Assembly: GCA_947172415.1 (NCBI GenBank)
Contig: OX359193.1
Coordinates: 1,544,501-1,608,500, forward strand
DNA from: Chondrosia reniformis
Lineage: Eukaryota > Porifera > Demospongiae > Chondrillida > Chondrillidae
Direction: 5' to 3'
DNA length: 64,000 bases
The position numbers and the translations under genes were made by a program. The notes under the pieces are model-generated. The model was not told the origin of the DNA and did not search any database. It was given only the letters and a program-made list of their open reading frames with translations. This document shows positions 4,301 through 27,000 of the stretch, piece by piece (position 1 is the stretch's first letter; each line of letters opens with the position of its first letter).

Positions 4301-7300
4301 TTATCGCTGCATAATGACGTCATTCTAGTGGGAAAGTTTGTTGAAATGGTAGTCACAAGTGTTAATCGATTACCAATCACAAAGTTCAGTCTGGACAACC
4401 AACCCAAAAAGTACTGTAGCATTTTACTATAGACAGTAATGCATGTATATTTATGTGTGATTAGGCAGTTGTAAGGATATTCATGAGTTCAGGTGTATGG
4501 GATAAGCAATTGGATTGGACATTCCTTGTTTCTCTATGCCAAAGGGATAACTCACTGGTATTTCTACAGCCCATAATTCCCCTCCCAGCTTCGCATTCAG
4601 CTGCATGGCAATCTTGGTGGATACCGACATTATATTCTTCTGAAGTGTTCTTGAAACCACACACTGAGATGGAACTGCAGAGAGCACAGCCAGATGCTAA
4701 ATAAGCTACCACTACAAACACGTACAGTACTGCTGGGACAAAGCTAGTTTATTGTCTTTTAAGTATTACTGCTCATCTAACTACGTACATATGGACCCAG
4801 TCATCTGAAGTTGACCTCACTGGTGTTCATAGCCTCCACTAGAAGGCGTGGCGATCAAATCTATGTTTATTTGCAAACGCTATGGACTCACAAAAGATCA
4901 AGACGACGACAGAGATTCACAGAGTTGAGTGATCTAGTATAGTGCAATGCTTACCAGGTTTGTCCACACAGCACAACTTTTTGATTGCATCATATCTGTC
5001 TTTGGTGTTCCTAGGCAACACACATATCACCTGAGAAAACATTTAGGCACCATAAACCAGTTGTGTAAGCTAGAGCTATATGCATATACGTACATATATT
5101 CCAGGATATTGGTTATTAAAATTGAGGAACTAAAAGGTTCCTCGGCCACAGTAAAACATTCACTTAGTAATTTAAAAGCATACAGTAGTCCATCCATTCA
5201 AATACATGTATTAGTGTGACCGACATGCCAGTTGGTAATACGTAGAGACCTACCAGTTGAGTTCTGTCAGTAACGTTTCCTTTTATGTTCTGGATAAAAG
5301 TATCTGTCCGATCATTTGGTAAGTTACACCTGAAAAATGGAATTCAGCTATAAAGGAAATACCGTACATGAGGGGATTTCCCCTCAGTTGTTGTGGGATG
5401 GTTGGATGGATAGGTGGAAGGTTGGGTAGGTCAATGGCCCCGAAGTACATACGTACGCTAGAAATGAGCAGTCACCACTGGATGGACGAATGGATGGATG
5501 GGCGCGAGGATGGGTGAGTGGGTGGATGGACGAATGGACGGATGGGCACGAGGATGGGTGAATGGGTGGATGGACAAATGGATGGATGGGCGGGAGGATG
5601 GGTCAATGGATGGATGGGCGGGAGGATGGGTGAGTGGGTGGATGGACGAATGGATGGATGGGCGGAAAGATGGGTCAATGGGTGGATGGGCGGGAGGATG
5701 GGTGAGTGGGTGGATGGACAAATGGATGAATGGGTGGGAGGATGGGTGAGTGGGTGGATGGATAATGGTAATGTCCTTTCTTACAGGCGAGGCTGAGCAA
5801 CTCTGATTCCCATTGGATCACAAACTTTCGTTAGAGTTCTAATAAACTCCATTGTTTTATCTTTGTCCCTATCTGCAAAGACGACCAAGAAATCCTGCAA
5901 GAAAAAACATGTGACTCTTTGGAATATACACACTATCATAGCAGTTCACAATATGTACATTAGTGATAATTAAACCACAACTATTTCATCTTTAGAGATA
6001 ATGAGACTATGCAGCAACAGCCATAAGTCAAACCCAGCACTATCACTCCCTTTACCACTAGATGCAGTGTCACTGGGGTACCACTGTCAACTCACATTCA
6101 GGTCCACTGGTTGGATGAGCCTGACTCCTCTCAAGTCCCTGGTCCAGTCAGCCTCGGTCAACTTGTAGGTAAACTAGAAAACAGACCAGTATGCATTAAA
6201 CCTGTTCAAATTGCTACATCTAAGTAACAGCGACAATACAAATAGCACAGTTTCCATTTATGTACGTACGTAGCTATTTCTCCCTGGCTTAAAAATATGT
6301 CACTTATAAATTGATGCAAAAAGTAGTAATTTATGGTAAATGATGGAGTTATGGTAAATATGTCCTTTTGTGTACTTTCTTGTAAAGCAGAGTAATTTGG
6401 GATTTAGCAAAACTGCCAGTTCAACCTGAATTTCTAATCAACTAAACCTACAGCTTCACTGGTTCCATAGGATCATAAAAATATATCATGGCTGCACATA
6501 ATGCCCCCCCCCCAGACTTTTGGAAAGTTAATATAAACTGTTTTGACATCACACCATTCCCCCCCCCTCTAATGTTGAAAATATTTATTTTGCCCAACCC
6601 CAAGTTCTGCATGCAGCCCTGTACATTACAGGCACAATGACCTCAAAGGTTGCAGCATTTGTCACTGTTGGTCTGCCACAGAGCAACACCAGTGAGCTAC
6701 AGGAGAGCTCCACCTCAACCCACCTGTTTGTCACTGTTGGTCTGCCACAGAGCAACACCAGTGAGCTACAGGAGAGCTCCACCTCAACCCACCTGTTTGT
6801 CACTGTTGGTCTGCCACAGAGCAACACCAGTGAGCTACAGGAGAGCTCCACCTCAACCCACCTGTTTGTCACTGTTGGTCTGCCACAGAGCAACACCAGT
6901 GAGCTACAGGAGAGCTCCACCTCAACCCACCTGTTTGTCACTGTTGGTCTGCCACAGAGCAACACCAGTGAGCTACAGGAGAGCTCCACCTCAACCCACC
7001 TGTTTGTCCTTGGTATGAATCTTCTCCGTAGGCAAAATTCTTCCTTCAACATGTAGAAGACCCTTTTCAAACTCCAAGTTCCAATTTGACAGGATTTCAT
7101 TGGCTTCTTTAGTTCTAAATTTGGCAGAGTAACAAGAAGGATGTCCTCTAACTGCATTTCATCAATGACAAAAGTAAGGATACTTAAGTACAAGGGGCTA
7201 TCTGTATCTCTCAGATGGTTCATATTTAGTCTTTTGAGCATCTACAATCAATCAGTCACTCAAGAAGATCCCCTGGGGTTGAAATGTCCAATTACGTATC

Positions 7301-24000: not shown

Positions 24001-27000
24001 AGTAGTGTTTTGAATTAATTAAATATGAACAGTCAAAGATAAAAACATTTATATCAGATTGAAAGTGTTTCTCAACAATTTCCATACCTTGTACGTCTCA
24101 GCCAGCCCTTTCTTTCTCAATATGGCTGAAGGAGCATACACTTCAGTGTCACCTTTTCTTATTTTCCACCAACCGTCCATTTTTATAGCTATGACCTCCA
24201 CCAGGTCTCCAGGGTTCAAATCTATTTCATCACTGTTGCTAGCTTTAAACTCTTCAACAACAAAGTACTCATCTGGTTCTGCAGATACAGAAATATTGCA
24301 TGATCTGTGACTTTAAGAGTTAAAGTATAACATTCACAAGTACAGATAGAGACAGTGCCTAGTTTGATCATATCAAAATTAGCAAACCTACGTATACCTC
24401 TTTACTTAAGCAATTACTAAAAGTTATACAGTAATAGTCATATAAAAATGGTTCATGTGCTTATATATTTTAAGAGTCCCATATAATAAAAAGCATTTCA
24501 TGTGCTTATATAATTATTAACGACAATTAAGAAGAGAATAACCATAAGTCACAAAATTTTCACAATTAGCCATGCATCTTACTTCCTAGAATATAATTAT
24601 GTCTTAAATTGGTTGGAATACTAGTCGACTAACCAGCCATGGTATCTTCTGCACTGTTAGCTCTTCCTCGCTCATTCACTGCCTCTAGTACTGAGGCTGG
24701 TGCATAGCCTTGAATATCTTCAACCTCCACCATCCACCATCCTAACACACATACATAAAATACTACATTGATAGGTAGTAAAGGATTCAATATTATATAT
24801 GAACAATTATCATCTCACAATGTTGATGCAAGGCAACACAGTGTGGCTGAAAGGCACTTTTTAATTGCTATATTTGGAATCCATAAGTAACTTCAAATGA
24901 TTACTGTAGATATTAAGCAAGAAAGGACTTAAATCTTCTTCTTCACGCTTGTGCTGACAACTTGTGACGGAATGAAGGATGGAATTTCCAGTAACAGCTG
25001 TCTGGCCCAGTGGAGAAAGGAAGAATGCAAGACGAACAGTATCCTCATACGAAACTCTTTACGTAGGTCTCACCAGTCTTGTGATTTTAGTCTATTATAT
25101 TTTTAGTTTATTCTTATGCTTGCTAACCATGTATGTAGGAAAATGGTGATGTCATGGTATACACACATACATATATCATATACCATCATGATCGCGACAG
25201 ATAAACCCTATCACTTCACACATACGTACGTACGTACATACCAGTGTCGTGCTTCTCAATGACAGTAACTGTTTCCCCTGTCTTCAGATCAACCTGCTGA
25301 CTGTCCAGCTTGTTGTAGTCTTGTGTTACCATGTACACTAACTGTGACTCCTCGTGATCATCATCTAAATCGGCCAGATCAAAGGTCTGTGCCCTCTCCT
25401 TCAACACTACAATGAAGCAAGATTTTTAGGATTTTATAAAGTTTTGGACATCATTTCAGACTATCATTTAACTAATATATTCTTGTATTTTGCCAGAAAC
25501 CGACTAAAATGGTGAAGGACATCAAAAATGTTTAAATTGTGCATGCTACAATTGCTAAGCCCGTTTTTAAAATTTCACAGTGGAAATATGATTCATTTCT
25601 AAAGCAATAAATTGTAAGTATTTGAAAATACATGTAGTTTTGTATCATATATAATAGCTACTAAATACACATACGTATATTACAATGCATGCCAAGGATT
25701 CACAGAAGATCAAGATAAAGAAAAAGACAAAGACTCCCAGGATCACTGATGAAGGGTGGAATTGGCTGTCTGACCCAGTGGAGAAGAAGATGAAAGAAGG
25801 GAAAAGAAGGAAGAAAAGACTCCTGTATCTTCATCCAAAGCTCTCTTCAGGTTTAGTTACCCTATAGGCTCTTTTACAGAATATCATGTAAGAAAATGGT
25901 ATCTTAGATTTTTCATGGCTATTAGCTGGTGTACATCACATGACCTTTTGACCTTACTTTGCTCAGTAGACTCTGAAGAAGTTACTTGTGTTGTGTGCTG
26001 AAATCGGTTGGAAAGCAGAGGATTAACAATGCGCTTTCCCATCTGAACAGAGGAGGTCAGGTCTGGTCGAATAATGTTATCTTTGGACCTTCCTGATGTA
26101 CTTTGTCTCCGCACTCTACAACAGTAGTTCAGGAAACAATTTATTATACATATACGTATGGTGGGCTGACTGATTAGTATTTATAAACCTACTTGATCCC
26201 ACTGACAGTGTCATCACTAAGTACTTATAAACCTACTTGATCTCACTGACAGTGTCATCAACTAAGTACATATAAACCTACTCGATCCCACTTACTCGAT
26301 CCCACTGACAGTGTCATCAGGCCAGAGACTGAAGAACCCATACAAAATAGTAGACTGGGAGATTTCTGAAGGCATTTTTATCAACTGCTGACAGAATTCT
26401 TCAAGCCTTTTCTGTCTCTTTTCGGCAACTTGATGAATTTGACTTCTTCCAATGTAAATCTTCCCTGTCATATGAGAAAGAGGGTTAACATCTAAATATG
26501 TCCATGCAAGAACACATGATAAACTGTGGATGACCTAATGTACAAACATATGCACACATACATATATACTTAACCTTTACTGATGATGTAATGCTATGAT
26601 ATTGTGAAATAATTCCCCATTAGTATTATTATAATATATACATAAATTAGATGATTTCAAGTAGTATCCTGGGTATTAAGAGATTTTCATTTGTACATAT
26701 TAAGCCACTAAGGATGTAAGTTCAGTATTAAAGATGTATGCACAGTAATGTATCATGTCACAAAATTGGATTAATGGGTTAATGGGTAGAGTACAAAATT
26801 TCAACTATTATATGCAGCACATAATAGATGTTGCATGGTGTACATACGTATACATACATATTTAGTTTCATTTAAATCAGATTAATAAATTGTGTATGGA
26901 AATATTTCAACTGAAAAAAACGTTTTTTACTCTTTATGCAGCATTGAGAATTATGTTATCCCTAGGACTAGAGGCTTATACTTTCTACTTTACAGTTGAG

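Follow-up and report, generated by a model that had tools for sequence, protein, structure and literature searches.

In a stretch of 64,000 nucleotides from the sponge Chondrosia reniformis (contig OX359193.1, here C5, positions 1544501 to 1608500; called the window in the following), four minisatellites lie across exon–intron boundaries, two of them in a Piwi gene and two in a neighbouring gene for an adaptor protein with PX, SH3 and SH2 domains. In all four the repeated unit carries the end of an exon together with its splice site. A preliminary description of the window had concluded from these arrays that tandem duplication repeatedly starts at splice junctions in this genome. Our analysis confirms the arrays but not this conclusion: in a sample of 314 kb the number of straddling arrays matches random expectation (four of 43 intronic arrays, with 4.3 to 5.4 expected). 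In all likelihood they are ordinary intronic minisatellites, which result from random tandem duplication in short introns and are tolerated as the outermost copy retains the junction.

The four arrays are all located within predicted minus-strand genes and were delimited by Tandem Repeats Finder (TRF) as listed here, together with a smaller duplication that overlaps one of them.

6658 to 7008, minus strand: minisatellite, 5.1 copies of a 69-bp unit, 100% matches; exon border 7000 of the Piwi gene, donor.
11503 to 11902, minus strand: minisatellite, 8.7 copies of a 46-bp unit, 97% matches; exon border 11884 of the Piwi gene, donor.
21499 to 21619, minus strand: minisatellite, 5.5 copies of a 22-bp unit, 87% matches; exon border 21507 of the PX gene, acceptor.
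26176 to 26292, minus strand: minisatellite, 2.6 copies of a 44-bp unit, 91% matches; exon border 26296 of the PX gene, donor.
26279 to 26306, minus strand: second duplication of 14 bp (TRF), overlapping the 44-bp array of border 26296.

With units of 69, 46, 22 and 44 bp in 2.6 to 8.7 copies all four are of minisatellite size, and an exon–intron boundary is crossed at each of the four borders. Judged by the TRF edges, the unit at 7000 holds nine exon bases (GACAAACAG) and the donor GTGGGT, the unit at 11884 holds 19 exon bases from the end of the NILFRR stretch and the donor GTTAGT, and the unit at 21507 holds the acceptor ATGTAG and nine exon bases. The 44-bp TRF row at 26296 ends 3 nt before the exon; in a gapped alignment its unit contains about 22 bases of the PX-domain exon (exon match score 22) and the donor.

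Exon content was compared by aligning the exon ends beside 42 intronic arrays to the respective array unit, and the exon ends flanking every predicted intron served as reference. The four cases occupy ranks 1 to 4 (p = 0.0016, 0.0016, 0.005 and 0.008), followed by a fifth array with p = 0.03. For the 9-base matches at 7000 and 21507 the rank by itself is not decisive with 84 exon ends tested, and they are convincing because the array continues in register into the exon: GACAAACAG is present at 7000 both in the exon and in the copy adjacent to it, and at 21507 exon and copy share ATGTAGCAATC plus most of the bases after it. Thus each of the four cases, taken singly, exceeds chance, and the junction-bearing units at 7000, 11884, 21507 and 26296 are present in the two genes as had been described. 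A strict edge finder counted only two of the four cases because it halts at mismatches and indels, and it was superseded by the alignment test.

The exon borders were derived from gene models for the whole sample, which consists of the window and 250 kb of control sequence (200 kb of contig C1 and 50 kb of contig C2; 309 kb of the 314 kb are readable) out of a genome of 117.4 Mb in 15 contigs. The gene finder combined a coding model and splice-site matrices with Viterbi training; general splice matrices were used at the start, followed by label-free retraining on the sample. A first version, which left the arrays unmasked, placed false exons inside them and was replaced by one in which array interiors were neutralised and the splice matrices retrained outside arrays. 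It predicted 304 introns with a median length of 316 bp (303 after one correction), and its borders equal those given in the preliminary description at 7000, 11884, 26296, 21507, 21941, 5785 and 2817. The masked finder still called a false exon at 10979-11194, for which the Piwi homology leaves no room, and on its removal two predicted Piwi introns became one. Part of the following array had been called as this exon.

10922 to 11222, minus strand: array of 4.2 copies of a 72-bp unit (TRF), in the Piwi intron that it shares with the array at 11503-11902.

Such arrays are thus a warning that gene predictors can put exons wrongly inside them.

The hand-joined Piwi product matches a solved Piwi-like protein (PDB 9s0z) with an E value of 7.6e-117 and no gap at either junction, and the stretches of 15 and 19 residues around the two junctions align to FYNIIFRRLLKIMNL and EKIHQGGKTFDYNPQFADW of 9s0z, respectively. 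Protein homology therefore confirms both predicted Piwi borders, 7000 and 11884. The product of the second gene shows matches to PX, SH3 (two stretches) and SH2, and the best PX match among solved structures reaches the residues PDDT immediately before the 26296 junction. The genes seen are animal-like and comprise Piwi, the PX-SH3-SH2 adaptor, a tyrosine kinase and a tektin.

A predicted Piwi paralogue on contig C8 bears on the age of the two Piwi introns. A 54-bp intron, likewise predicted and of phase 0, is located in it at the place matching the 7000 intron (GRILPQEKIIFQGRSVQ|VGTN). TRF detected no array there, so that the 7000 intron is probably older than its array. The predicted paralogue does not have the 11884 intron, which follows NILFRR in the window gene, and MNILFKRAMKQLK appears to be continuous in it (L039:733-979); this would fit either a gain in the window gene or a loss in the paralogue.

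As the units include splice sites, the arrays present series of potential decoys, which were scored with the genome's own splice matrices; the list omits donor sites whose score falls short of the real one by more than 1.5. The donor at 7000 (CAGGTGGGT, score 6.63) is accompanied by four identical decoys with the same 9-mer, and the donor at 11884 (GAGGTTAGT, score 6.21) by seven identical decoys and one weaker one (4.73). For the 26296 donor (score 5.19) the listed decoys score 3.9, 5.63 and 5.63, and upstream of the 21507 acceptor (score 3.51) there are five AG sites, of which one scores 1.63 and the other four score between 4.71 and 5.61. Altogether 17 of the 20 listed decoys equal or exceed the real site in score, and the claim that the arrays create many decoy splice sites holds for these predicted sites. 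If the first decoy at 7000 were used, the length would stay in frame, but the extension GTG GGT TGA ends in a stop codon, and the decoys at +46, +92 and +14 would cause a frameshift.

For the comparison with chance we counted arrays with a score of at least 50 and a unit of at least 12 bp against 606 junctions. The null assumes one founding unit per array, because only the founding event must hit the junction. It was calculated in two ways: per site, by dividing the unit positions with at least six bases on each side of a junction by the collapsed intron length and multiplying by the number of junctions, and per intron, by placing each unit randomly on its own collapsed intron. Both nulls were run with eight parameter settings (all combinations of two limits each for score, overlap and exon quality), giving 16 tests. 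In the 314 kb four of 43 intronic arrays straddle a junction, compared with 5.38 expected per site and 4.27 per intron; over all regions, settings and both nulls the expectation ranges from 2.28 to 5.38 with P values of 0.196 to 0.785. None of the 26 arrays in the control regions straddles a junction (3.16 expected per site and 1.62 per intron; 0.8 to 3.16 over all settings). A pull towards junctions was not found among the 38 non-straddling arrays either, as their distances to the nearer junction relative to the free space are uniform (Kolmogorov–Smirnov test, p = 0.64), both in the window (n = 12, p = 0.33) and in the control (n = 26, p = 0.77). Within the 314 kb the arrays are therefore no nearer to splice sites than intron length predicts, which speaks against the proposal that tandem duplication starts at splice junctions.

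Before these counts, and also before the exon-end alignment and the run of the strict edge finder, six repeats judged to be coding or exonic had been set aside manually, namely those at 12196, 143842, 146380, 143718 and 179986 of C1 and at 7293 of C2 (positions in the joined sequences). The repeat at C1 12196-13024 (L010:2196-3024) is a coding 27-bp repeat of about 31 copies encoding nine residues like PQFPQQGVA and is open over 861 bp in two frames. Those at C1 143842 and 146380, with units of 184 and 280 bp, minus-strand open stretches of 302 and 214 codons and predicted exons between the copies, were taken for putative repeated coding modules, and the remaining three (C1 143718, C1 179986 and C2 7293) lie within predicted exons. 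In an earlier count by TRF edges, made before any repeat was set aside, six of 27 arrays overlapped a junction, compared with 5.82 expected; these six were three of the four window cases and three C1 rows.

Several observations weigh against a purely random placement or limit what the count can tell. All four cases are found in one window, two per gene in two neighbouring genes, and in the window alone four of 17 arrays straddle a junction, compared with 2.31 and 2.65 expected (1.4 to 2.65 over all settings; P 0.053 to 0.274, before allowing for the window having been chosen for this feature). Two control arrays come very close to a junction: the one at C1 8911-9436 (L009) ends within 2 nt of a predicted junction and has the acceptor AG inside its unit, and the one at C1 18207-18486 (L010:8207-8486) is flush with a predicted donor. 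Three of the C1 repeats that were set aside overlap predicted junctions, and keeping them would change the counts to seven of 46 in total and three of 29 in the control, with about two more expected. The sample is also small: the Poisson interval for four events is about 1.1 to 10.2, which leaves room for an enrichment of about 2.4-fold or for a depletion. Finally, the gene models themselves rest on sequence alone.

Beyond the sample, the whole genome was searched for pairs of donor consensus words. No excess was evident genome-wide for AGGTAAGT pairs 8 to 38 bases apart (93, versus 163 for the backward pattern) or for AGGTRAGT pairs 30 to 60 apart (410 versus 789), but this is a weak test because single arrays contribute a large number of the pairs and the sample itself contains the backward word more often (30 versus 12). 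Five donor-bearing arrays were picked from the AGGTAAGT pair list for gene prediction, and two of them (L034 and L035) at first seemed to extend into an exon. On contig C10 (L035:1133-1342) a 20-bp unit in 10.5 identical copies takes in the donor CTAG|GTAAGT together with about 14 bases from the end of a predicted exon. The predicted product matches SART3, a splicing-related factor, with an E value of 1.5e-24; this main match ends before the array, and a separate weak SART3 alignment runs up to RQLAIPL at the array. In an alternative run of the gene finder the exon ended at a stop codon in the array and not at the donor. We regard this SART3-like gene as a probable further straddling case, and the phenomenon as one that probably recurs in the genome. 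The candidate on C13 (L034) was rejected since with other masking a donor upstream of the array was chosen, and for the remaining three arrays (L036, L037 and L038) the gene finder predicted no overlap of exon and donor.

Thus the observations can be accounted for by a simple model. At the start, a tandem duplication spanning 20 to 70 bp would occur at a random place and by chance include the end of an exon and the intron sequence next to it. In the outermost copy the exon end and the splice site would persist in their original form, so that the mRNA would be unchanged, provided that the outermost site is the one used, as we infer it to be. The remaining copies would be turned into intron, including their exon bases and splice site, and would be multiplied with the rest of the unit, presumably by slippage or unequal exchange. 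As introns are short, with the median of 316 bp given above, such overlaps would be common without any preference for splice sites, and selection would seem to tolerate them.

The alternative closest to the original proposal is that duplications start preferentially at splice sites, owing to breaks, R-loops or template switches there. The clustering of the four cases in two adjacent genes would fit, as would a window-only P value that falls to 0.053 in one of 16 tests, the two control arrays that end no more than 2 nt from a junction and the probable case on C10. We nevertheless consider such seeding unlikely, as none of the 26 control arrays left after setting aside the six repeats straddles a junction where 1.6 to 3.2 were expected, the distances of the other arrays are uniform and donor-consensus pairs show no excess over the backward pattern, weak as this last test is. 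Moreover, the exon shares of the units are spread out, with 9/69, 19/46, 9/22 and about 22/44 in the window (13% to about 50%) and about 14/20 on C10. A quantitative form of the idea, in which splice junctions are preferred about twofold as duplication starts, perhaps in local hot spots like the Piwi and PX genes, and hundreds of genes carry decoys of equal strength, appears similarly doubtful; if it were true, the spliceosome would have to ignore these decoys. It is less probable still, and by some distance, that the arrays are retained because their extra splice sites act, for example in regulated or buffered splicing. Most decoys are intact and of equal score (17 of the 20 listed), but recent copying explains near-identical copies equally well, and the frameshifts and the stop codon noted above speak against it.

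Slightly less credit still is due to intron gain by tandem duplication as in the Rogers model, according to which the arrays would have made the introns from an exon segment bearing AGGT. The unit at 7000 does contain CAGGT, and the predicted C8 paralogue lacks the 11884 intron, for which gain and loss are both possible. However, only one junction per intron lies inside an array, the acceptor being outside in the three donor cases and the donor outside in the acceptor case, and the 7000 intron has a same-phase counterpart in C8 that is free of an array. That the assembler created or multiplied the copies is hardly conceivable: the copies at 6658-7008 are 100% identical, as might be expected from such an artefact, but those of the other three arrays differ (87, 91 and 97% matches) and the genome is assembled in 15 contigs of 117 Mb in total. 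Random tandem duplication in short introns thus remains the explanation that we favour. If it is correct, the arrays represent a natural experiment in which several identical donors or acceptors follow one another and the outermost preserves the original mRNA, and they could reveal how the spliceosome chooses among equal adjacent sites and how exon ends become intron.

Further arrays of the window lie close to junctions without straddling them.

5479 to 5762, minus strand: simple-unit minisatellite ending about 22 to 23 bp from donor 5785 (TRF, gene finder).
21670 to 21921, minus strand: array of 11.5 copies of a 22-bp unit ending 19 bp from the donor at 21941 (TRF).
2828 to 3143, minus strand: 28-bp array beginning 10 bp from intron border 2818 on the acceptor side (TRF, gene finder).

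The first two had been reported to start within 20 bp of donors 5785 and 21941, which is about right with 23 and 19 bp, and the third, said to form the polypyrimidine tract of the acceptor at 2817, is indeed pyrimidine-rich on the coding strand and 10 bp from the border. The arrays at 21670-21921 and 21499-21619 occupy opposite ends, the donor and the acceptor side, of one 433-bp intron. About 91 copies of a 21-bp unit (18696-20588) take up a large part of a predicted intron, 3.1 kb long, in the PX adaptor gene. In a Piwi intron, two 38-bp arms that are 1010 bp apart and 95% complementary (7910-8995) enclose an inverted repeat of 70 nt with a 28-nt spacer (8410-8577), an arrangement that looks like nested non-autonomous elements. 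Elsewhere, the array at 53899-55096 has a 41-bp unit in 29.5 copies, and the unit contains an inverted repeat that is near-perfect and rich in G+C (CCCTTCCCCCTGAGGGGGAGGG); the array belongs to a predicted intron and its end is 45 bp away from the acceptor. Copies of a dispersed repeat, about 250 bp long and with 80 to 90% identity to each other, are found at 14367-14618, 25685-25917, 35911-36148 and 59086-59318 (the latter in reverse), with fragments elsewhere in the window, and the repeat is possibly a mobile element family.

The statement that no named process is known for such arrays was too strong, since arrays of a similar kind have been published, and those described here belong to a kind already in print for human and potato. 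No report of them in a sponge or similar animal was present among the titles and abstract beginnings of the literature matches listed. For human segmentally duplicated genes, De Grassi and Ciccarelli (2009; PMC2812944) describe minisatellite internal tandem repeats at exon–intron boundaries, on average about 30 bp in 4 copies, by which splice sites are altered or multiplied, with 27 intron modifications after manual inspection. The sponge arrays resemble these in having minisatellite units across exon–intron boundaries and multiplied splice sites. The human study compares paralogues with copy-number differences, has transcript evidence and often finds novel introns or retained repeats, whereas our data come from the sequence of one genome and the original junction is apparently kept. 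In the potato RdRp gene a tandem duplication across an intron–exon boundary is reported by Ma, Lan and Niu (2016; PMC4974935). There the duplicated segment likewise comprises an intron end and an exon start, and the exon bases of one copy became intron; in potato one duplication gave rise to a new intron, which is supported by RNA, in contrast to the sponge arrays of 3 to 9 copies within one intron. The same paper cites exonic tandem duplications with AGGT in ATP2A1 and 24-bp arrays in fission yeast (Rogers 1989; Hellsten 2011; Zhu and Niu 2013). These share with the arrays of C. reniformis the tandem copies of a unit bearing a splice signal, but in ATP2A1 and fission yeast, as cited there, the copies supply the new intron with both of its splice sites, whereas here only one side of the intron lies in the array.

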